Shown: one piece after another, positions 10,605-21,858 of the stretch
Numbering within the stretch: the first letter of the stretch is position 1
How the letters are laid out: each line of letters begins with the position of its first letter
Source: Bacteroidota bacterium
GTDB lineage: Bacteria > Bacteroidota > Bacteroidia > AKYH767-A > OLB10
DNA length: 64,000 nt
Direction: 5' to 3'
Assembly: GCA_018268195.1 (NCBI GenBank)
Contig: JAFDWZ010000033.1
Span: 1 to 64,000, forward strand
Notes under the pieces: generated by a model
What the model saw: the letters and a program-made list of their open reading frames with translations, nothing else
Told to the model about the DNA's origin: nothing
The model's database searches: none
Program-made: the position numbers and the translations under genes

Positions 10605-13118
10605 TTATCTTAATGTCCCCCGTTTAGGTCGTTTTATCCATTTATATACTTCAAACCATAATACCGAAACAGCAGAAATAAGCAGACAAATCCATAGTTC
10701 TTTCATCGTTAAACTGCTGACTTTAAAAAAATCTGCAAATGCATCAATATTCAAAATTGCAAAAAGTAAAAGAAGTGTAGCTCCTGTTACAATAGGGAAT
10801 AATTTGTTTTTATGTTTAATGCTTTCAAAAATGCTAAAAACGAACGAGCGATTGGACATGCTCAGAAGAATATTTGCAAAAATCATAGTAGTAAAAACCA
10901 TTGCTCTTGTGGTCAGCTCATTGCCATTGTAATGAACGGAATATTGGTACGCACAAAGCACACCGATTGTAATGAGTAATCCTTGCACAATACTTATTCC
11001 TAACTCGCGCCAGTTTAGAAAAGTGTCAGTCATTTTTCTGGGTTTTTGTAGCATGGCACCTTTCTCCAAAGGTTCGTTTTCATAAACAATAGAACAGGTT
11101 GGCCCCATAATTAATTCAAGAAAAATAACGTGTACCGGAGTGAATATATACGGATAAAGCCAGCCAAGAAATAATGGAAGTGATACTGTTAAGATGATAG
11201 GTATATGAATGGATATAATATATTGAACAGCTTTTTTAATGTTGCTATAAATTCTTCTTCCGGCAGCAATTCCTATTATCAGTTTTTCTAAATCATCATT
11301 AATAATCACCAATGAAGCAGCGGCTTTGGCAATTTCTGTTCCTTTATTTCCCATAGCTACTCCAATATGAGCTGCTTTAAGTGCAGGAGCATCATTCACG
11401 CCATCTCCTAACATTGCAACAACTTCTTCGTCACGTTTAAGAGCATTTACCAACTTTAATTTCGCTTCCGGAAACATACGCGTGAACAAAGTAGTTTGCC
11501 TCGACACTTTAATCAATTCTTCGTCTGAAAGGTTAGCAATTTCTGACCCGTTTACAACAGTTGATGTTTGAGTAATACCGGCTTGTTGAGCGATTGCTTT
11601 AGTAGTATCCTCATTGTCGCCTGTAATTACCTTTACCTTAATGCCTGCAGCGTAAATTCGCTGAAACACTTCATGCATCCCTTTTTTAGGGGGATCGTAG
11701 AAGACGGTAAATCCTAAAAAATCAAAACTAAAGTCCTGTTGTTTTTCGGGGAAATTATTTCCACTGAATGATGATTTGGCTACACCTAAAACACGATAAC
11801 CCTGACTTCCGAAATGTTTTATCTGCTTCTGTAATTTCTCTTTTTCAGCTGCTGATAAATTGCACACGCTTAGTATGGCTTCCGGAGCACCCTTTGCAGC
11901 AATTATTCTTATGCTTGATGCATTTTCAAACAAATGTGTCATCATTGGAGGTTTTCCCTCCAGCGGATACTCATGTATCATCTGAAACTCTTTCCGTTGA
12001 TCAGTGGATTGAGTTTGTTCGTAAACGCGATGCAATGTTTTTTCCATTGGGTCAAAAGGCACCGGTTCACTGCTCCACATTGCATATTGTATCAATTCGG
12101 AAAGAACAGGAGTATTAAACTCAGTATCTTCAAATACTTTGTTGGTACGGTAATCATACAGCACTTTAAGGTGCATGGAGTTTTCGGTAATCGTTCCGGT
12201 TTTGTCTGTGCATATAACGGTAGTGCTGCCAAGAGTTTCAACCACAGTACTACGCTTGATAATGATCCCTTCCTGCATTAATTTCCAAGCACCTAATGCC
12301 ATAAAGGTGGTGAATGCAACAGGAATTTCCTCGGGTAGTATTGACATCGCCAAAGTTAATCCTGTCAGCATACTTTCAATGATGTCACGTGATTGCCAAA
12401 AGCTATATCCCCACACTAACATAAAAACAACTATTCCAATCACAGCCATCCATTTAACAAATTTTGTGATTTGTATTTGCAAAGGCGACTGCTCCTCGCG
12501 AATTTCCTGAATAGATAGTCCGATTTTTCCCAGCTTGGTTTCACTACCAATTTTTTCTACTTCGAAAACCGCTAATCCGGAAACTACCACTGTGCCGCTA
12601 TACACATTTCGGTCTTCAGTTTCCTGACTTTTAAATACTGAAAATGATTCTCCTGTTAACGAAGCTTCATTAACTGAGAAATCGTTACTGTGAACAATTT
12701 TTCCATCGGCATTTATCATTTTCCCTTCTTCAATAATACATAAGTCGCCTACAGCAATTTGATGAGTTGGTATTTGAATCACTTTTGAATTGCGAATAAC
12801 AATACTTTGAACTTCGTTAAGTTTTTTCAACGCTTCTAATGCTTTCTTACTTCTGTTGTCCTGATAAAAAGAAATTGCTGAAACAGCTAAAATTGCCAGA
12901 AACATAAATAAGGCTTCTCCATAATTTCCTACAACTAAATATATAACTGAAATGGTATATAATAAAATCAGCATCGGCTCTTTTAAAACCGCAAGTAGAA
13001 TTTTTATCCATGAACTATTTGAAGAGGAGGAAATTTTATTGTAGCCATAATTCTTTTGCGAAGCGGCAACTTCTGAATCATTCAAACCGGAAAGATGTGC
13101 AGGTATGTTAAATGACAT
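10605..13118 (-). CDS. Cation-transporting P-type ATPase (calcium-type, P2)
   Basis: An 837-residue inner-membrane P-type ATPase. It shows the cation-ATPase N-terminal domain (LSGLNDSEVAASQKNYGYNK), the actuator motif VNEASLTGES, the membrane helix 4 motif ILPEEIPVAFTTFMALGAW, the phosphorylation site CTDKTGTITEN and the hinge MLGDGVNDAPALKAAHIGVAMG. The PEEIP form and overall layout fit calcium-type pumps rather than heavy-metal or potassium pumps, since no CPC or N-terminal metal domain is present. It starts 20 bp after phoR on the same strand and is the last gene of the phosphate array. Ion specificity is inferred only. Confidence 0.88.
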   Translation of the reverse strand: MSFNIPAHLSGLNDSEVAASQKNYGYNKISSSSNSSWIKILLAVLKEPMLILLYTISVIYLVVGNYGEALFMFLAILAVSAISFYQDNRSKKALEALKKLNEVQSIVIRNSKVIQIPTHQIAVGDLCIIEEGKMINADGKIVHSNDFSVNEASLTGESFSVFKSQETEDRNVYSGTVVVSGLAVFEVEKIGSETKLGKIGLSIQEIREEQSPLQIQITKFVKWMAVIGIVVFMLVWGYSFWQSRDIIESMLTGLTLAMSILPEEIPVAFTTFMALGAWKLMQEGIIIKRSTVVETLGSTTVICTDKTGTITENSMHLKVLYDYRTNKVFEDTEFNTPVLSELIQYAMWSSEPVPFDPMEKTLHRVYEQTQSTDQRKEFQMIHEYPLEGKPPMMTHLFENASSIRIIAAKGAPEAILSVCNLSAAEKEKLQKQIKHFGSQGYRVLGVAKSSFSGNNFPEKQQDFSFDFLGFTVFYDPPKKGMHEVFQRIYAAGIKVKVITGDNEDTTKAIAQQAGITQTSTVVNGSEIANLSDEELIKVSRQTTLFTRMFPEAKLKLVNALKRDEEVVAMLGDGVNDAPALKAAHIGVAMGNKGTEIAKAAASLVIINDDLEKLIIGIAAGRRIYSNIKKAVQYIISIHIPIILTVSLPLFLGWLYPYIFTPVHVIFLELIMGPTCSIVYENEPLEKGAMLQKPRKMTDTFLNWRELGISIVQGLLITIGVLCAYQYSVHYNGNELTTRAMVFTTMIFANILLSMSNRSFVFSIFESIKHKNKLFPIVTGATLLLLFAILNIDAFADFFKVSSLTMKELWICLLISAVSVLWFEVYKWIKRPKRGTLR

Positions 13119-13138: not shown

Positions 13139-14842
13139 TTACTTATGCAACTGAAAAATAAATTCCAATCCGCCTTCTTTTCTGTTTTTAGCTGTGATGT
13201 TTCCTTTGTGAAAATGTACAGCATTTTTTACGATAGATAATCCCAATCCGCTTCCGCCTGTGTCTCTTGTTCTGCCTTCCTGCACACGATAAAATCGTTC
13301 AAACAAACGGTTTAAATGCGTTTCGTCAGAAATACCTATGCCGGTATCATAAAATGAAAAATAGTAATATTCACTGTCTTCGTTGAAAACTGAAAGATGG
13401 ACTTTTATATGTTCACCGGCATAACGAATGGCGTTCTCAATCAGGTTTCTGAAAATGGAAGTTAATAAGTTTAAATTGCCCTGTATTGTAATGTTGTCGG
13501 GTAGTTGCCAATCCCATTGAATGTCCTTTTGTAAAAGTTCAACGGATAATTCACTTCGAATTTTTTGCAATAAAGGTTCTAACTTTACTCTTTCAGATTC
13601 AAAAGATTGAGGAGCTTCTTCTAACTTAGCAAGTATGCTCATGTCTTTAATCATTTCGGAGAGGTTGAGTGTTTGCGCATAAGCCTGATTGGTAAAATGG
13701 AGTTTCCTTTCTTCTGTTAAAGGTTGTTCCAGTATGGTTTCTAAGTAGGCTCTGATGCTTGTAATGGGTGTGCGCAACTCATGGGCAATGTTGCCTGTCA
13801 TCTCTAGTTTAAGTTGTTTCGTTTTTTCTTGTTGGGTGCTATCGCTAAGTATTATTTCAAAACTGTTATCATTAAATAGGGTAGTGCGTAAGGAAAATAT
13901 TTTTCCATGTTTTTTTATTTGTGTTTCAAAATAACTTTCGTTTCTTGTTGATAGAAATTGATGCAATTCAAAAAACAGTTCGTCATGAAGTATGATTTCC
14001 GGGTTGCTTTGAGGCTTATCGGTGAGTTGATTGAGGTACTGTACAAATAGGCCGTTGTGAAATTCTACTTGCTGCGATGCTGAGAAAAAGCAAATTCCTT
14101 CCTCAGAGATTTGAATGTGCTGCAATAATTTCTGTTTCTCTAATAGTAAATTCTTTTTACTTGCTTCCACTTGCTGGTAGCTTTCCGATATTTTTTTTCC
14201 GATTTCTCCCAGCTCATCATTGCCGAAAGATACCTGATTATCGAAAGGATGCACCGCAAAATCTCTAAGCCGTTTAATAGACGTGCCAAATTGTTGAGTA
14301 ATGCGATGAATAACAAATACAGATAACACAAACAATAGAAATAAGAAATATAAAAACAGGTTGTCAGTTTTTAAGAAATGTTGCAATTGGATGTTGTAAG
14401 GGAGAGCCACTCGTATAAAAACAATTCCATTTTTTTTTGCGTAGTATAAATAGGGGTGGTGATTAGAAACAGATTCCCTTATATCTTTCCCTTTTCCGTT
14501 TTGTGCTGATGAAATAATTTCCGGACGATTGGCATGATTCTCCATTTTAGAAATATCTGCCACCATGTTATCATACTGCACCTTGCCATGCGCATCTATA
14601 ATTGTGATGCGTAGGTCATTTGGCAGAAAGGATTGAACGGAGTTGATTGCAGAGTCGTATGAAATAGGAGTGTTGCCAATTGTGGTTTGTATGATTTGGG
14701 TGTAGATATCGAGTTTTTCTTCTAAGGCTTCTGTTTTAAAAGTGCTTTCACGCGATTGCTCTAACAATGCAATGCCAACTGCGAATGCTGTAAACAACAA
14801 TGCAAAATATAGAAATAGCCGTTGACGAAAACTCAACTTCAT
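13139..14842 (-). CDS. phoR: Phosphate-regulon sensor histidine kinase (PhoR-like)
   Basis: A 567-residue membrane kinase that would phosphorylate the adjacent PhoB-like regulator. It has two membrane helices (about 8-26 and 158-178) flanking a periplasmic domain, then a linker, a PAS-like region and the kinase core. The core shows the H-box NIAHELRTPITSIRAYLE, N-box NLIENAIRYAG, G1 box DTGIGISDE and G2 box GGSGLGLSIVKNA. Its start overlaps the phoB stop by 4 bp (ATGA). The assignment to phosphate rests on the pst genes and phoU in the same array. The periplasmic domain makes it longer than E. coli PhoR. Confidence 0.92.
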   Translation of the reverse strand: MKLSFRQRLFLYFALLFTAFAVGIALLEQSRESTFKTEALEEKLDIYTQIIQTTIGNTPISYDSAINSVQSFLPNDLRITIIDAHGKVQYDNMVADISKMENHANRPEIISSAQNGKGKDIRESVSNHHPYLYYAKKNGIVFIRVALPYNIQLQHFLKTDNLFLYFLFLLFVLSVFVIHRITQQFGTSIKRLRDFAVHPFDNQVSFGNDELGEIGKKISESYQQVEASKKNLLLEKQKLLQHIQISEEGICFFSASQQVEFHNGLFVQYLNQLTDKPQSNPEIILHDELFFELHQFLSTRNESYFETQIKKHGKIFSLRTTLFNDNSFEIILSDSTQQEKTKQLKLEMTGNIAHELRTPITSIRAYLETILEQPLTEERKLHFTNQAYAQTLNLSEMIKDMSILAKLEEAPQSFESERVKLEPLLQKIRSELSVELLQKDIQWDWQLPDNITIQGNLNLLTSIFRNLIENAIRYAGEHIKVHLSVFNEDSEYYYFSFYDTGIGISDETHLNRLFERFYRVQEGRTRDTGGSGLGLSIVKNAVHFHKGNITAKNRKEGGLEFIFQLHK

Positions 14843-15528
14843 AACACATCAGGGTTAAAACGATAACCGTAACCTGTACGGCTGGAGATGACATCACTGT
14901 ATGCTCCGAGTTTTTTGCGCAACCGCACAATGTGTACATCTACGGTACGCTCGGTAATGTAGGGAGTTTCTTTCCAGATGATATCAATGATTCGCTCACG
15001 CGAGAATAATGTTTCCGGTTTTTGTGCAAAAAGTGCAAGTAATTCAAATTCAGTTTTTGTTAAAGCAACTTTCTCCTGATTGATAAAAACTTCTTTTGCG
15101 TTCAAATCAATAGTAAGTGCTCCTATTGTCAACCGGTTGATTTTTTCTTCTATTGCTATTTTGTCTTTGGTTCGTTTCAATACTGCCTTAACACGTGCAA
15201 TTACTTCTTTGATAGAGAAAGGCTTTGCTATGTAATCATCACCTCCAACAGAGAACCCTGTTAGCATGTCGTTCTCGGTGTCTTTAGCGGTTAAGAAAAT
15301 TATAGGGGTGGTAATTTCTTGTTTTCGTAGTTGCTCAGCAAATTTATATCCCGACATTCCACCCATCATCACATCCAATAATATCAAATGAAATTCTGCC
15401 AAAGGTTTTTTTAATGCTTCTTCGGCAGAATACACAGCTTCTACCTCAAAACCTTCGTTCTTCAGATTAAATTCCAGTATCTCTGAAATGTTTTTATCAT
15501 CATCTACTAATAGTATTTTGTGTGGCAT
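14839..15528 (-). CDS. phoB: Phosphate-regulon response regulator (PhoB-like, OmpR family)
   Basis: A 229-residue two-domain transcription factor. The receiver domain (1-120) carries the acidic pocket VDDDKN, the phospho-acceptor Asp in LILLDVMMGG and the conserved Lys in YIAKPFSIKE. The C-terminal winged helix (about 130-227) has TKTEFELLALFAQKP and the recognition region TERTVDVHIVRLRKKLG. It overlaps phoR by 4 bp and follows phoU after 38 bp. It probably binds the 11-bp GTAAY direct repeats upstream of pstS and the porin. Confidence 0.93.
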   Translation of the reverse strand: MPHKILLVDDDKNISEILEFNLKNEGFEVEAVYSAEEALKKPLAEFHLILLDVMMGGMSGYKFAEQLRKQEITTPIIFLTAKDTENDMLTGFSVGGDDYIAKPFSIKEVIARVKAVLKRTKDKIAIEEKINRLTIGALTIDLNAKEVFINQEKVALTKTEFELLALFAQKPETLFSRERIIDIIWKETPYITERTVDVHIVRLRKKLGAYSDVISSRTGYGYRFNPDVL

Positions 15529-15566: not shown

Positions 15567-16235
15567 TTATTCAGACTTAACTTTATGTTTCAAAACTTTT
15601 GCATCCAAATAAAAAACAATTTCTTCCACAATATTGCTGCAATGGTCGCCAATTCGTTCCATTTTACGTATTAGCAATATCAGTTTTAAACCGCAATTGA
15701 TTTGTGAAGGATTTTGAGTCAAATAGGCTTCCAGTTTGCGAAAGGCAGCATGGTATATTGCATTCACTTCTTTATCTTTCATTAATATCTTTCCTGATGT
15801 TCTGGTGCTTTCTGAACTAAGCGCTACGTAGCTGTCTGACATCATGTGAAGCAACATTTCGAACATTTTTTCTAATTGCAATTCTTCCATTAACGCCTGG
15901 TTTATTGGTGCACAGTCGTTGTCAATTATATGTTTGGCAATTCCTTCAGCATAATCGGCAATACGTTCTAAGGTTATGCTGATTTTCATGATAGACAATA
16001 TCAACCGAAGGTCTATAGCTACGGGATTGAACAATGCGATATAGTTTTCGCAGGAGCGTTCTATTTTTAATTCAAAGGCATCTACACGTTTTTCTAATCG
16101 AATAATTTCCAATGCGGTTTCAATATCGTTGTGTAGCAGCGATTGCTTAGCTTTCTCTACCTGAGAAATTACTAATCGCCACATTTGGCTTATGTCTTCT
16201 TTGAGAGTTAATACCTCTTGTTGGTTATGCTTCAT
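15567..16235 (-). CDS. phoU: Phosphate signalling protein PhoU
   Basis: A 222-residue all-helical PhoU homolog that links the Pst transporter to the PhoR kinase and represses the regulon when phosphate is plentiful. Two PhoU repeats are visible with the typical motifs ERIADYAEGIAKHI and ERIGDHCSNIVEEI (the ExxxD metal-binding motif). Its start codon overlaps the stop of the methylglyoxal synthase gene by 4 bp (ATGA), so the two are translationally coupled. phoB follows 38 bp downstream. Confidence 0.93.
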   Translation of the reverse strand: MKHNQQEVLTLKEDISQMWRLVISQVEKAKQSLLHNDIETALEIIRLEKRVDAFELKIERSCENYIALFNPVAIDLRLILSIMKISITLERIADYAEGIAKHIIDNDCAPINQALMEELQLEKMFEMLLHMMSDSYVALSSESTRTSGKILMKDKEVNAIYHAAFRKLEAYLTQNPSQINCGLKLILLIRKMERIGDHCSNIVEEIVFYLDAKVLKHKVKSE

Positions 16236-16705
16236 TGTAGTATTCGGTTTTTATATTTATCAATCTGTTCGTTTGTTCCAAAATGGAATCCATTTGTAAA
16301 TAGTGGTGATGTAATAATTAAATCGGCTGTAGAACGTGAACAAGCATAAATGATGTTGTATAAAGTTGCTATGCGGAGTAAAGCTTTAATATCTACATCA
16401 TGTGGCTGCGGTTCCATGGCATCCCAGAAGAAAAATAGTGCATCAATCTCTGCATTGCATATTGCAGCACCTAATTGTTGGTCGCCAACTAGAGGTCCTG
16501 ATTTTAGTTTTGTCATATTCAAGGGAAATTCCACTCCGTTTTCAAGCATACATTTTTGAAACATTTCTCCCACTAAATTTCCGGTTGTGCCAGTGCAAAC
16601 CAATTCATACTGTATTAATTCAATCCAGTGACATCTTACCCAATCGAGCAATTCTTGTTTGCAATTATCATGGGCAACTAAGGCAATTCTTTTAACTAAT
16701 TTCAT
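16232..16705 (-). CDS. mgsA: Methylglyoxal synthase
   Basis: Converts dihydroxyacetone phosphate to methylglyoxal and inorganic phosphate, a bypass of lower glycolysis that is inhibited by phosphate in characterised enzymes. The 157-residue protein has the family signatures RIALVAHDNCKQELL (active-site His/Asp), CTGTTGNLV (phosphate-binding loop), SGPLVGDQQLGA (catalytic Asp region), FFFWDAMEPQPHDVDIKALL and the C-terminal TADLIITSPLF. The usual GGDQQ reads VGDQQ here. The gene lies between pstB (35 bp away) and phoU (4-bp overlap), an unusual location that ties it to phosphate starvation. Confidence 0.93.
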   Translation of the reverse strand: MKLVKRIALVAHDNCKQELLDWVRCHWIELIQYELVCTGTTGNLVGEMFQKCMLENGVEFPLNMTKLKSGPLVGDQQLGAAICNAEIDALFFFWDAMEPQPHDVDIKALLRIATLYNIIYACSRSTADLIITSPLFTNGFHFGTNEQIDKYKNRILQ

Positions 16706-16740: not shown

Positions 16741-17487
16741 TTAACCAAATCTTCCTGTAATATAATTTTGAGTTGATTCTTTATCGGGATTTAGAAACAT
16801 TTTTTTGGTATCGCTGTACTCAACCAATTCACCGTGCATAAAGAATCCGGTGTTGTCGCTCACACGGGCTGCTTGTTGCATATTGTGGGTTACAATTACA
16901 ATGGTATAGTGTTGTTTTAACTCATGAACCAGTTCTTCAATCTTAGAAGTTGAAATGGGGTCTAATGCAGAAGCAGGTTCGTCCATAAGGATTACCGATG
17001 GAGCCACTGCTAATGCTCGCGCAATGCAAAGTCGTTGTTGTTGTCCGCCTGATAATTCATAAGCTGACTTTTGTAACTTGTCTTTTACTTCATCCCACAG
17101 AGCGGCTGCCTGTAACGATTCTTCCACTCGTTGTTTGATAAAATGTTTATCGCCCATATCATTCACCCGCAATCCATAAGCAACGTTTTCGAAAATAGTT
17201 TTTGGAAAGGGATTGGGTTTTTGAAACACCATTCCAACCCGCTTACGCAATGCATCCACATCGGTAGATTTCTCATAGATGTTTTTTCCGTCAATCAGAC
17301 ACTCGCCTTCCAGTCTGGTATTTTCTATAAGGTCATTCATTCGGTTAAACAAGCGAAGGAAAGTAGATTTTCCGCATCCTGATGGTCCTATAAATGCAGT
17401 TATGGTGTTTGGTTTTATTGCAATACTGATATTCTTGATTGCATGAAAATCGCCATAGTAAAAGTTTATATTTCTTGTTTCTATCAT
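16741..17487 (-). CDS. pstB: Phosphate ABC transporter ATP-binding protein PstB
   Basis: Cytoplasmic ATPase of the high-affinity phosphate importer, 248 residues. It shows Walker [13 protein letters not shown], the Q-loop [19 protein letters not shown] typical of PstB, signature [18 protein letters not shown], Walker [16 protein letters not shown] and the switch His in [16 protein letters not shown]. The start ATG is supported by the conserved beginning [18 protein letters not shown]. It lies 26 bp after pstA and 35 bp before mgsA, co-directional with both. Confidence 0.97.
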
Positions 17488-17513: not shown

Positions 17514-18365
17514 TTATTTCGAGCGTTTCTTCTCTAATTTTCTCCTTATAAACGTTGCAAGCAAATTCATTGTCAGCACTATTAAAATAAGCACTAATGC
17601 AGTTCCATAAGCCATTGGGCGCGATGCTTCAATATCGGTTCCACTGGTTGCCAATACATACAGATGATAGGGCAGAGCCATTGCCTGATCAAAAACTCCT
17701 GATGGCAGATGGGGTAAAAAATATGCGGCTACGGTAAATAAAATAGGAGCTGTTTCGCCAGATACTCTTCCGATGGATAATATGAGACCTGTAATTATAT
17801 TGGGCATGGCAGCAGGTAAAACTACTTTGCTAATAGTTTGTAATTTAGTAGCACCCAATGCCAAACTTGCTGCTCTATATGTATCCGGTACAGCTTTTAA
17901 TGCTTCTTCTGTTGTGCGAATGATAACAGGTAATGCCAATAGTCCTAAGGTTAATGAACCCGCAAGCAATGAATCTCCAAAATTGAGTTTGTTTACAAAC
18001 AACGACATACCAAATAATCCAAATACAATGGATGGTACACTAGCAAGATTATTGGTCATCATACGAATGGTTTTTACAATCCATCCTTTGCCTGCGTATT
18101 CCTGTGTGTAAAGTGCAGACATTACTCCCAAAGGAAATGCAAACAGCAAACTGCCTATGGTTAAATATAGCGTACCGACTATTGCAGGAAATATTCCTCC
18201 CGTAGTCATACCTTCTCCGGGAAATTTACTTAGAAATTCCCAATTAATTACACGAACTCCGTTGATAATGATGAAGCCCAGAATACTAAAAAGGATGAGG
18301 ACTACTATTATTCCCAGAAGTTTAAAAATCAAGAAGGCTACAAACTGACTGTGTTTTTTATTCAT
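17514..18365 (-). CDS. pstA: Phosphate ABC transporter permease PstA
   Basis: Inner-membrane permease subunit of the phosphate importer, 283 residues with six predicted helices. The binding-protein-dependent transport signature is visible in [20 protein letters not shown] (EAA-type loop that contacts PstB), as are the typical PstA regions [20 protein letters not shown] and [19 protein letters not shown]. It begins 4 bp after pstC and is followed by pstB, the standard pstCAB order. Confidence 0.96.
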
Positions 18366-18369
18366 GAGA

Positions 18370-19584
18370 TTAATGTGGTTTGTAATTTTTCTTTTTTGAA
18401 ATGATTTCAGCTGATATAGAAATAATCATGGTGAACACAAACAGAATACATCCCAGTAAAAACAAGGCTTGATAGTGAGGGCCTCCGGCAGGAGCTTCAC
18501 CTAACTCTGCTGCTATTGTTGCCGGGATGGTTCGCACAGATTGAAATATGGAATGAGGCATTACGGCTGCATTTCCGGTTACCATCATTACAGCCATCGT
18601 TTCACCAATAGCTCTTCCAATACCTAATACTACGGCTGCTGATATACCTGATTTGGCATAAGGAACAACTACCCTGTAAATAGTTTGCCATTGTGTGGCT
18701 CCCATAGCTAAGCTTGCTTCACGCATCGCTCTTGGTGTGTTTCTCAGCGCATCTTCTGCAACTGAAATAATGGTAGGCAATGCCATAATTGCTAAAAGCA
18801 AACTTCCTGTAAATGCTGTTTCTCCAACTGGCAAGTGAAGCGATTTCTGTATTGCAGGAACCAATACTACCAATCCGAAGAATCCATAGACTACTGAAGG
18901 AATTCCGGCAAGCAATTCTATTACCGGCTTCAATAACCTACGCTGTTTTTCACTTGCTAATTCTGATAAATAAATAGCAACGCCTAAGCCTAGTGGTAGT
19001 GCTATGATTAATGCAACAATACTCACCAACAGCGTACCCAATACCAAAGGCATTACACCGAAAAACGGAACCGGAGTTGCAGTTGGCATCCATTCTTTAC
19101 CAAGGAAATAATCGGAGGGTTGTATGTTGTGAGATACTAATGCTTTTACTGAACTTCCTATCGGTGCATATTGCTTGGGCAAAAAGGCAAGAATATTTTC
19201 ATCCTGAGCAATAAGTTCTCCCAGCTTTTGAGGAAGCAATGCATAGTTTTCGCCTAACTCATCTTCCGGATATACCGAAAATGCATCATCAATCCGGAAT
19301 ATTTTTATTTCACCGTCTTTACCTCCAATATCTTTCCAATTTGTAATTTCTGAGTCAAATATTTTTTTAGTTTCTGCAGGGCTTAATGTGTTTATCGGAT
19401 TCTGAGCATGTACATAAAGTTCATAACCTTGTTCTACTTCAGGTGATTTAAAAAGTGCAGCACCTTCGGTAAACAAAAAGATAGTTATAAAAACAATAGC
19501 GATGCCTGTTATGGCACCGCTAAAGGTCAATAAATACTCTGTTGTTTTGTCAAGTATGCGTCTGATTATTTTCTTTTTTTGCAT
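18370..19584 (-). CDS. pstC: Phosphate ABC transporter permease PstC with a PstS-like periplasmic insert
   Basis: Inner-membrane permease of the phosphate importer. The C-terminal two thirds are standard PstC (LLAGIPSVVYGFFGLVVLVP, EASLAMGATQWQTIYRVVVP). Between the first helix (about 15-37) and the second there is an extra segment of about 100 residues. It resembles the second lobe of PstS: NPINTLSPAETKKIF and DSEITNWKDIGGKDGEIKIF in PstC match NPSNKVTKLTKEQLEGIF and TGKITNWKEVGGEDLKI in the adjacent PstS. At about 404 residues it is roughly 85 longer than E. coli PstC. The frame opens six codons earlier at a TTG; the first ATG (19584) is preferred. Confidence 0.93.
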   Translation of the reverse strand: MQKKKIIRRILDKTTEYLLTFSGAITGIAIVFITIFLFTEGAALFKSPEVEQGYELYVHAQNPINTLSPAETKKIFDSEITNWKDIGGKDGEIKIFRIDDAFSVYPEDELGENYALLPQKLGELIAQDENILAFLPKQYAPIGSSVKALVSHNIQPSDYFLGKEWMPTATPVPFFGVMPLVLGTLLVSIVALIIALPLGLGVAIYLSELASEKQRRLLKPVIELLAGIPSVVYGFFGLVVLVPAIQKSLHLPVGETAFTGSLLLAIMALPTIISVAEDALRNTPRAMREASLAMGATQWQTIYRVVVPYAKSGISAAVVLGIGRAIGETMAVMMVTGNAAVMPHSIFQSVRTIPATIAAELGEAPAGGPHYQALFLLGCILFVFTMIISISAEIISKKKNYKPH

Positions 19585-19606
19585 TTCTGTTTTTTCAATC
19601 AACGAA

Positions 19607-20428
19607 TTACTTAATGTTGATATATCCTACTTCTTCTACTATTTTTTGTCCGGCAGGTGAGAGGATGAAATCAATGTACTTTTTAACTTTGTTTTCTGAT
19701 TGAGCAAGATAATAGTAGAATAGTGGTCTTACAACCGGATAGGTTTTGTTTTTGGTATTCTCCACTGAGGGTGCGGTATAAGTTTTTCCTTTGTTAAACG
19801 AAACTGATACTGCTTGCACGGAGCTGTTGAGATATGCTAACCCTACATAAGCAATAGCGCCTTTAGTTTGACTTACCGATTGAATGATGGAACCATTTGC
19901 AGGCATGCTCATAATCCCTGACATGTAGTTTTTATTACTCAATACATGCTCTTTAAAAAATTCGTAAGTACCTGATGATGTTTCTCTGGAGTAAGGTATA
20001 ATTTTTAAATCCTCACCACCAACTTCTTTCCAGTTTGTTATTTTCCCGGTAAAGATTCCTTCTAATTGCTCTTTGGTAAGTTTAGTAACTTTGTTACTCG
20101 GGTTTATAATTACAGCTAAAGCATCCAAAGCAATGGTTACTTCTTTAACGGTTTTCCCACTCTCCTGAAGTTTTTGTTTTTCCGAAAATTTGATTTTCCG
20201 TGAAGCCTGTGCAATGTCAGTTGTACCTTCAATCAAAGCAGCTAAACCTACTCCCGAACCGCCACCGGTAACAGTTACTTTATTATCGCTGTTGGTTTTC
20301 ATAAATACTTGTGCCGCTTTCTCTGATATTGGCAATACGGTTTCGGAGCCTTTAATTTTTTGAGCATTTACATTGAATGCAATTCCGCAAAGGGCTAACG
20401 CGAATAAGATTTGATTTTTCATTTTCAT
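19607..20428 (-). CDS. pstS: Phosphate-binding protein PstS
   Basis: Periplasmic phosphate-binding protein that feeds PstCAB. A signal peptide (MKNQILFALALCGIAFNVNAQ) precedes a compact binding-protein fold with the phosphate-contacting motifs KGSETVLPISEKAAQ, VTGGGSGVGLAALIEGTTDI and PYSRETSSGTYEFF. At about 273 residues it is shorter than E. coli PstS, as is common in this phylum. The frame extends to a TTG at 20452, but that lies inside the predicted -7 box. The ATG at 20428, or the next one at 20422, is therefore the start. It has its own Pho-box promoter in the 57-bp gap after the porin. Confidence 0.95.
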   Translation of the reverse strand: MKMKNQILFALALCGIAFNVNAQKIKGSETVLPISEKAAQVFMKTNSDNKVTVTGGGSGVGLAALIEGTTDIAQASRKIKFSEKQKLQESGKTVKEVTIALDALAVIINPSNKVTKLTKEQLEGIFTGKITNWKEVGGEDLKIIPYSRETSSGTYEFFKEHVLSNKNYMSGIMSMPANGSIIQSVSQTKGAIAYVGLAYLNSSVQAVSVSFNKGKTYTAPSVENTKNKTYPVVRPLFYYYLAQSENKVKKYIDFILSPAGQKIVEEVGYINIK

Positions 20429-20449: not shown

Positions 20450-20505
20450 CAAAATTCTTTTGATGTTGTTACAATGGATAGTAGATTATATTACGATTTG
20501 GTTAC
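20450..20505 (-). promoter_or_regulatory. Candidate Pho box and -7 element upstream of pstS
   Basis: On the minus strand four consecutive 11-bp units are GTAACCAAATC (20495-20505), GTAATATAATC (20484-20494), a degenerate TACTATCCATT (20473-20483) and GTAACAACATC (20462-20472). Three of the four fit GTAAYnnnATC. A near-consensus -7 box GAATTTTG lies at 20450-20457, its 5' end exactly 37 bp after that of the second GTAAY. The 11-bp spacing resembles the direct-repeat geometry of PhoB sites in other bacteria. Confidence 0.7.
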
Positions 20506-20509
20506 GTTT

Positions 20510-21778
20510 TTAAAACTTATACTGCAAACGAAAAGTGAATACATCGTCTGAAAGGTTGCTATCGTAACCACTCAGATTAGTAGATTTTTCATTGGTAGTT
20601 TTATCGTAATAAGCAGTTAGGCGCAAACTGCCATTGATACGCCACATCAAACCTGTTCCAAGTGTGCTGTATGCAATGTCGCCTTTTCCTGTGCCGTTTA
20701 GCCCAATATCATTTTTCGAAACCTTGGAATTCGGGTCGTAGTAATCATATTTAACTATCAGCGATAATGGTATATTTCCCAAATCCTGAACAAAAGTTAT
20801 ATAGTACCCGCTGAAATTTCTGATATAGGTATCATTGGTAGGCAGGGTAGAGTAGTTAGGACTTTTGGAATCGCTCTTGTTACCTGGTTGTGTGCCCCAA
20901 ACATATTCACCATAAATGCTTGTCATTCCCAATACGGACATGGTAGCAAATTGTGCGTCTATCCCAAAATATTCTCTCTTGGCATAAGCCCTATAATTTG
21001 CAGTGTCTTTATTCACAACAAATGATTTTCCATTCATGGTGTAAACACTTGACGACCCCTGATATACGCCACCTCCGTAGTATGATAATCCACCACTGAT
21101 ATTGGTTATTTCTCTTAAGTTCTTTTTGAAACTAAGATGTCCGATAAAATCTTTGCGGTTATCCATATCCGGTTTTATACCATTACCGCCAATGATAGCT
21201 GCTTCTAATTTAACAATATTCCATGGAGAAGTTTTGGCTGCTTGCAAAGTAATCATAGCTCCCAAATCTCTTTCTTCAGGAAACAGAGTAGTGGTAACGG
21301 TAGCTCTCTCGGGCGATTCTCTTTTTGAAGAAGAGTATGCTACTTCGTATCCAAATGGGCGATCAAATACACCCGCTTTTATGAAACTGCTTCCTGCCCA
21401 AGGGTCTTTAACAGTAATAAAGGCATCTTTCAGCCCGATTCCTTTTTCAGTAATATCCAATTGAAACACACCACCGGCAATGCCTTTTTCATAAGCCAGT
21501 TTTACACGACCTCGCCTGATTCCAAAACGGCTAAAACTTTCATTGGTATTGGTGTTAGCTCCACCAACTTTTAGCGAAGCGTATTTTTCGCCATATTGAA
21601 ATTGCGTTTGTACATAGCCTGAAATCTTCAGTTGTTGCAATAGCTTGATATCACTCTCGTGTGACTGAACCTGTTGCTCTAATTGTTTTAATGAGTCAAC
21701 GGTTTCTTCCGTTTGTTGCGCAATAGTTGCTGTAGTGGCCATCAGCATACAGCTTAGATAAATCATTGTTCTTTTCAT
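20510..21778 (-). CDS. Phosphate-selective porin (OprP/OprO family)
   Basis: A 422-residue outer membrane porin, predicted to let phosphate or polyphosphate enter the periplasm. It has a signal peptide (MKRTMIYLSCMLMATTATIAQ) and a short coiled coil (about 25-48, SLKQLEQQVQSHESDIKLLQ) typical of trimeric OprP-type porins. The barrel shows RFGIRRGRVKLAYEKG and FIKAGVFDRPFGYE, and the C-terminus DVFTFRLQYKF ends in Phe as expected for an assembled outer membrane protein. It is the first gene of the phosphate array, has its own Pho-box-like promoter, and stops 57 bp before the TTG-opened pstS frame. Confidence 0.88.
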   Translation of the reverse strand: MKRTMIYLSCMLMATTATIAQQTEETVDSLKQLEQQVQSHESDIKLLQQLKISGYVQTQFQYGEKYASLKVGGANTNTNESFSRFGIRRGRVKLAYEKGIAGGVFQLDITEKGIGLKDAFITVKDPWAGSSFIKAGVFDRPFGYEVAYSSSKRESPERATVTTTLFPEERDLGAMITLQAAKTSPWNIVKLEAAIIGGNGIKPDMDNRKDFIGHLSFKKNLREITNISGGLSYYGGGVYQGSSSVYTMNGKSFVVNKDTANYRAYAKREYFGIDAQFATMSVLGMTSIYGEYVWGTQPGNKSDSKSPNYSTLPTNDTYIRNFSGYYITFVQDLGNIPLSLIVKYDYYDPNSKVSKNDIGLNGTGKGDIAYSTLGTGLMWRINGSLRLTAYYDKTTNEKSTNLSGYDSNLSDDVFTFRLQYKF

Positions 21779-21802
21779 TAAATATTTTCGTTATATTTTA
21801 TG

Positions 21803-21858
21803 CAAAAGAACAGAGGGCTTATTGCGCGCCTGTTTCAGGATTGTTACAATGTGATTAC
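21803..21858 (-). promoter_or_regulatory. Candidate Pho box and -7 element upstream of the porin
   Basis: On the minus strand GTAAT (21854-21858) and GTAAC (21843-21847) are direct repeats 11 bp apart (GTAATCACATT then GTAACAATCCT). The near-consensus -7 box TTCTTTTG (21803-21810) starts exactly 37 bp after the second repeat, the same geometry as upstream of pstS. The predicted leader before the porin ATG is about 18 nt. Confidence 0.7.

Follow-up and report, generated by a model that had tools for sequence, protein, structure and literature searches.

The promoters of the porin gene and of pstS in the phosphate-transport (pst) array of the window, the whole 64,000-nucleotide stretch of DNA that was analysed, share one four-rung ladder of short direct repeats. 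We propose that this ladder is a Pho operator, composed of four head-to-tail 11-bp units, (G/T)TAAY-N6, whose starts precede the -7 box by 48, 37, 26 and 15 bp. Judged from sequence comparison, it is very probably a binding site of PhoB. We are also largely confident in the complete explanation, in which the PhoB and PhoR proteins encoded in the same array would activate both promoters through this ladder under phosphate limitation.

Few operators are as well known as the Pho box in Proteobacteria, Firmicutes, Actinobacteria and cyanobacteria, while Bacteroidota are a dominant phylum in the gut, soil and sea. An earlier note on this DNA had described the operator as one not defined for this group; indeed, no Bacteroidota Pho box was found in the open-access literature searched. 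The 11-bp-repeat Pho box as a kind has long been known. What is new here is the core, its regular repetition as four units, its placement relative to TAnnTTTG and the link of the first base to the regulator, although priority is not claimed for these. Such a phase-locked consensus could make phosphate regulons predictable in Bacteroidota genomes, and the ladder allows PhoB activation to be tested point by point where the promoter is read by a non-E. coli-type sigma factor. It also forms one half of a regulator-operator pair whose two members seem to have changed specificity together.

Architecture of the two promoters

On the minus strand, the porin promoter reads GTAATcacattGTAACaatcctgaaacaggcgcgcaataagccctctgTTCTTTTG, with repeats 11 bp apart, and the pstS promoter reads GTAACcaaatcGTAATataatctactatccattGTAACaacatcaaaaGAATTTTG, with spacings of 11 and 22 bp; at both, the second repeat starts 37 bp before the octamer. 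Unit positions (-48, -37, -26 and -15) are counted in bp from the start of the unit to the -7 octamer, and all coordinates are collected in Table 1. The letters and distances given in the earlier note for both promoters are exact throughout, and its observation that three of the four pstS units fit GTAAYnnnATC was borne out. It had correctly placed repeats 37 bp from the -7 box, but the operator is not the pair at -37 that it proposed; four units, at -48, -37, -26 and -15, take its place. Overlooked at that stage were GAAAC (-26) and GCAAT (-15) at the porin promoter, as well as the identity of the third pstS repeat with the -15 rung.

Both -7 boxes carry TTTG, and the single mismatch of each falls in TA. 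The earlier note had counted one mismatch per promoter, which is right, and had read it as expected for activated promoters; this reading fits, yet relatives show the mismatch too, which makes it a habit of the lineage. Among the phylum promoters (n=116), the TA positions of the -7 box are occupied by T in 96 and by A in 88.

Table 1. Genes of the pst array and elements of its two promoters in the window
Feature	Position	Strand	Evidence or sequence
Porin gene, outer-membrane, OprO/OprP-like	20510..21778	-	homology to relatives
pstS	19607..20425	-	TIGR02136, 256.5 bits
pstC	18370..19602	-	TIGR02138
pstA	17514..18365	-	TIGR00974
pstB	16741..17487	-	TIGR00972
Methylglyoxal synthase gene	16232..16705	-	between pstB and phoU
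phoU	15567..16235	-	TIGR02135
phoB, Bacteroides-type, proposed binding protein	14839..15528	-	NF053854, 317.6 bits, curated cut-off 270
phoR, Bacteroides-type	13139..14842	-	NF053855, 581 bits, cut-off 500
Ca2+-type P-ATPase gene	10605..13118	-	start 20 bp past phoR, same strand
pstS operator unit 1 (-48)	20495..20505	-	GTAACCAAATC, GTAAC
pstS operator unit 2 (-37)	20484..20494	-	GTAATATAATC, GTAAT
pstS operator unit 3 (-26)	20473..20483	-	TACTATCCATT, TACTA, degenerate
pstS operator unit 4 (-15)	20462..20472	-	GTAACAACATC, GTAAC
pstS promoter -7 octamer	20450..20457	-	GAATTTTG, one mismatch to TAnnTTTG
Porin operator unit 1 (-48)	21848..21858	-	GTAATCACATT, GTAAT
Porin operator unit 2 (-37)	21837..21847	-	GTAACAATCCT, GTAAC
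Porin operator unit 3 (-26)	21826..21836	-	GAAACAGGCGC, GAAAC
Porin operator unit 4 (-15)	21815..21825	-	GCAATAAGCCC, GCAAT
Porin promoter -7 octamer	21803..21810	-	TTCTTTTG, one mismatch to TAnnTTTG

Conservation within the genus group

The genus-group set comprised 13 porin and pstS promoters from seven genus-level genomes, namely the window's own, G001, OLB10, G003, the BROCD021 MAG, OLB11 and the SJ452 MAG, and the four-unit ladder is found in these 13 promoters. Conservation upstream of orthologous pstS and porin genes, which the earlier note had named as a test of its idea, therefore held. Unit 1 keeps its T, unit 2 its TA and unit 4 its AA with little or no variation; the first base of unit 1 is G in 12 of the 13 promoters, and many spacer columns are low in information. 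Pairwise identity of the units reaches 0.75 at porin and 0.80 at pstS promoters, against 0.37 and 0.49, respectively, for the spacers. Even the less canonical rungs are kept: unit 3 is GAAAY or GAAGT in five of the six porin promoters of the group, and the GCAAT of porin unit 4 recurs in G001 and G002. TTTGCA of the -7 box is retained across the genus. In G003, whose PstS is just 64% identical, GTAAT-11-GTAAC persists, and its second unit again starts 37 bp from the octamer.

Specificity in the genome

In the 3.0-Mb genome that carries the window, the bare GTAAYN6GTAAY pattern occurs at chance frequency (47 matches vs 50 for the reversed-pattern control). The earlier note would have taken such a frequency as evidence against the operator, but a motif of 16 bp is too short for its frequency to decide the matter; only the phased architecture is informative, and the full architecture is specific. 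When TTTG at the proposed distance is added to the pattern, three exact matches remain in the genome, two of which are the window promoters. A profile built from relatives only, with the window excluded, recovered the window promoters at E=1.2e-7 and 9.6e-5, the next match standing at 0.11, and a profile from 50 promoters outside the genus recovered them at E=6e-8 and 1.3e-6, followed by a match at 0.07. Since both profiles single out the window promoters, the stringent site is limited to the pst array in its own genome; with just two sites, no wider regulon is seen there.

Weak matches of the profiles in this genome (E>=0.07) were considered as further regulon members and rejected; those inspected, from the relatives-only profile, were mostly intragenic or lacked a convincing ladder together with a -7 box.

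Occurrence across Bacteroidota

Outside the genus, 163 regions upstream of porin and pstS genes were compared with 836 control regions that precede other genes of these loci. GTAAY-GTAAY spacings in the 163 regions concentrate at 11 (28 pairs), 22 (37) and 33 bp (11), every other spacing being represented by 0-4 pairs. Distances from GTAAY to the octamer peak in the same manner at 15 (56), 26 (15), 37 (52) and 48 bp (20), with 0-5 elsewhere. In the 836 control regions, no GTAAY phase was found, and the distribution is flat (5, 6, 5 and 5 at 15, 26, 37 and 48 bp). The profile trained on the genus exceeded 99% of the null in 95 of the 163 outside promoters, while its reverse-complement control did so in 4. 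A refined profile raised the count to 116 of 163, a figure that is not out-of-sample, as the same set was used in later training rounds; 47 of the 163 promoters have no clear ladder. Because of the shared ancestry of the promoters, p-values overstate their independence. The strongest rungs phylum-wide are -37 and -15, as would fit dimers repeating every 22 bp, and the weakest is -26, which would overlie the place of the -33 element, a position matching its weakness.

The phylum profile was then applied to seven genomes with studied loci and, at E<=1e-3, to 60 Bacteroidales genomes, an even draw from the order of a Parabacteroides genome. The genes directly following its matches encode PstS (including a second PstS family), PstC, the porin, the PiT phosphate permease (Pfam PHO4), PhoB-type regulators and TonB-dependent receptors, some of which adjoin pst. 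Of 21 matches in the 60-genome scan, 13 precede core phosphate genes or PhoB-type regulators, 2 precede TonB receptors, 2 precede small carboxypeptidase-regulatory-like proteins, and 4 have no evident link. In two Bacteroidales genomes, the ladder lies upstream of phoB itself. The recurrence upstream of phosphate genes in other genomes that the earlier note had called for was thus found before pstS, pstC, porin, PiT and phoB genes. In one Bacteroidales genome, the divergent porin and pstC promoters (L242/L253, G069:C3:360477-360656) carry two back-to-back ladders about 60 bp apart; this divergent gene pair resembles the head-to-head pst layout of Bacteroides fragilis. The predicted operator is phylum-wide and not peculiar to the array of the window. 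Taken with the 11-bp period, the fixed phase relative to the -7 box, the conservation and the specificity described above, all predictions for a PhoB operator that lend themselves to computation are borne out.

The probable regulator and its match to the operator

The PhoB homolog that the earlier note had recognized in the same array scores above the curated cut-off of its family model (Table 1). The closest PDB entries to its DNA-binding domain are those of E. coli PhoB, including 3t72 and 1gxp, with DNA complexes among them. The recognition helices of the window PhoB (RTVDVHIVRLRKKL) and E. coli PhoB (RTVDVHIRRLRKAL) differ at 2 of 14 positions.

A tree of PhoB proteins from the sampled genomes separates two clades, with a support of 100/100 for the split. 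Type B unites Bacteroidales, the genus of the window and a few other MAGs, while type O holds all sampled family- and order-mates. Among 61 relatives, NF053854 was passed by G000, G001 and G003 alone, and the G002 copy is frame-shifted. The residue corresponding to position 201 of E. coli PhoB is R in type B and K in type O; this numbering is presumed from the 3t72 alignment and from the C-terminus of E. coli PhoB. In E. coli PhoB, R201 contacts a guanine. At the -37 unit, the first base is G in 24 promoters and another base in 2 of type B, as opposed to G in 1 and another base in 21 of type O (Fisher p=3e-10, uncorrected for the common ancestry of the promoters). Type-O promoters keep the four-rung phase, with TTAAC as their units. 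In the sequences compared, whether the putative unit opens with G or T depends on the PhoB clade and goes with residue 201 (R or K).

One tentative explanation, to which we give less than even weight, is that the genus acquired its pst-phoBR cassette together with the operator from a Bacteroidales-type lineage, replacing the native system. It is suggested by the placement of the window PhoB in a clade apart from the sampled family- and order-mates and by the joint switch of the first base from T to G and of residue 201 from K to R. If true, the Bacteroidota Pho system would be a natural record of the co-change of regulator and operator specificity, at the scale of about one residue and one base.

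Two further observations concern PhoB of the congeners. The PhoB of G003 (locus L063) is 60% identical to that of the window and groups with a Chitinophagales MAG instead of with the window and G001, which suggests more than one phoBR cassette exchange within the genus. In OLB10, the PhoB region (L062 12831-13518; G002:C8:87842-88372) contains an in-frame TGA and is matched by two tblastn pieces in different frames; either this is an error of sequencing, or the regulator is broken while its operators are intact.

Comparison with described Pho boxes

The E. coli Pho box consists of two 11-nt direct repeats with a CTGTCAT core, arranged head-to-tail (PMC4415409) and ending some 10 bp short of the -10 element (PMC1906773). 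The ladder likewise consists of 11-bp head-to-tail repeats in the place of the -35 element, at a fixed site replacing -35/-33, and stands at phosphate-uptake and other phosphate genes; the recognition helices are near-identical. The geometry of the E. coli Pho promoter equals that of the window within about 1 bp, the core of the last unit starting 15 bp before the -7 octamer. Unlike in E. coli, the core is (G/T)TAAY and not CTGTCAT, four units are the rule, and the ladder is set against the TAnnTTTG of a different primary sigma factor. The absence of CTGTCAT is not disqualifying, because the Pho box consensus varies by species (PMC4415409). Moreover, GTCAY of E. coli and GTAAY of the window differ in a single base, and the OLB11 porin promoter has GTCAT at -15.

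The SphR Pho boxes of cyanobacteria, CTTAACCT repeats with a 3-bp linker (PMC1906773), resemble the ladder in their 11-bp period, TTAAC-containing units and at least three tandem copies. They differ in phylum and promoter, and the Bacteroidales-type unit has G first at -37 and -15. Within Bacteroidota, the DAP-seq motif of Riemerella anatipestifer PhoP, an OmpR-family regulator, is TTTAACA, with 583 ArcA-like sites (PMC9603813). Its TTAAC core is similar to the type-O unit; the main text of that paper does not contain "pst", and no 11-bp phased ladder is described in it. B. fragilis PhoB (BF1576), a Bacteroides PhoB and thus of the type to which that of the window belongs, was shown by EMSA with purified protein to bind a 512-bp pstC promoter fragment (PMC3547664). 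In the phoB mutant, expression of the pst genes and the phosphate permease collapses, with pstC down about 428-fold and the permease about 52-fold; the paper gives no mapped site or consensus (PMC3547664). A phosphate-starvation study in Flavobacterium johnsoniae named a regulon and no motif (PMC8115612).

Proposed mechanism and alternative explanations

Under phosphate limitation, PhoR would phosphorylate the array-encoded PhoB, and phosphorylated PhoB would then bind as tandem dimers to units 1-2 and 3-4. Unit 3 is degenerate, which weakens the case for two independent dimers. The proximal dimer (-26/-15) may replace the -33 element and recruit the primary sigma factor to the weak -7 box. 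As an outcome, the porin gene and the pstSCAB-phoU-phoBR array would be switched on. Because phoB lies downstream on the same strand, cotranscription of the array, with transcripts presumably reading through from pstS to phoB, would make positive autoregulation likely.

The ladder could also be a real operator of another OmpR/PhoB-family response regulator. OmpR-family regulators generally favour direct repeats of about 10-11 bp, and the genome itself encodes several PhoB-like regulators (6 matches). We nevertheless consider this assignment unlikely, as the base that opens the unit varies in parallel with the PhoB clade and the operator stands before phoB itself in two Bacteroidales genomes. 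Direct binding of a pst promoter by B. fragilis PhoB (PMC3547664) argues in the same direction.

Less specific origins of the repeats are harder to reconcile with the data. A general core-promoter context of Bacteroidota, such as an A/T-rich UP-like or -33 element without any specific operator, would account for the fixed distance to the -7 box and the overlap with the -33 region; it is very improbable, given that the GTAAY phase is absent from the 836 control regions and that the profile finds in the genome are limited to the pst-array promoters. An accidental likeness between the two promoters, arising from short repeats in A/T-rich DNA, would agree with the chance frequency of GTAAYN6GTAAY alone, but it is refuted by phase-locked conservation across species and its probability is close to negligible.

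Other genes of the array

On the minus strand, the gene order is porin, pstS, pstC, pstA, pstB, methylglyoxal synthase, phoU, phoB and phoR. The porin gene adjoins pstS in most relatives. A Pfam search of the window porin (20510-21778) returned nothing, even at E=1e-3, and one homologous relative stands barely above the cut-off of PF07396 (Porin_O_P); this branch of porins escapes the Pfam model.

G001, OLB10 and the BROCD021 MAG also have the methylglyoxal synthase gene in their pst loci (88-89% identity), as do loci L091, L092, L102, L107 and L113 (62-67% identity). The placement of this gene apparently puts a phosphate-releasing glycolytic bypass under Pho control. No close copy of the Ca2+-type P-ATPase gene that follows phoR was found in the congeners' pst loci examined; the B. 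fragilis PhoB table includes a calcium-transporting protein (PMC3547664). The PstC of the window has an N-terminal extension that matches part of the PstS family model (E=5.7e-7, residues 59-102), and a comparable N-terminal extension is visible in the PstC of locus L253.
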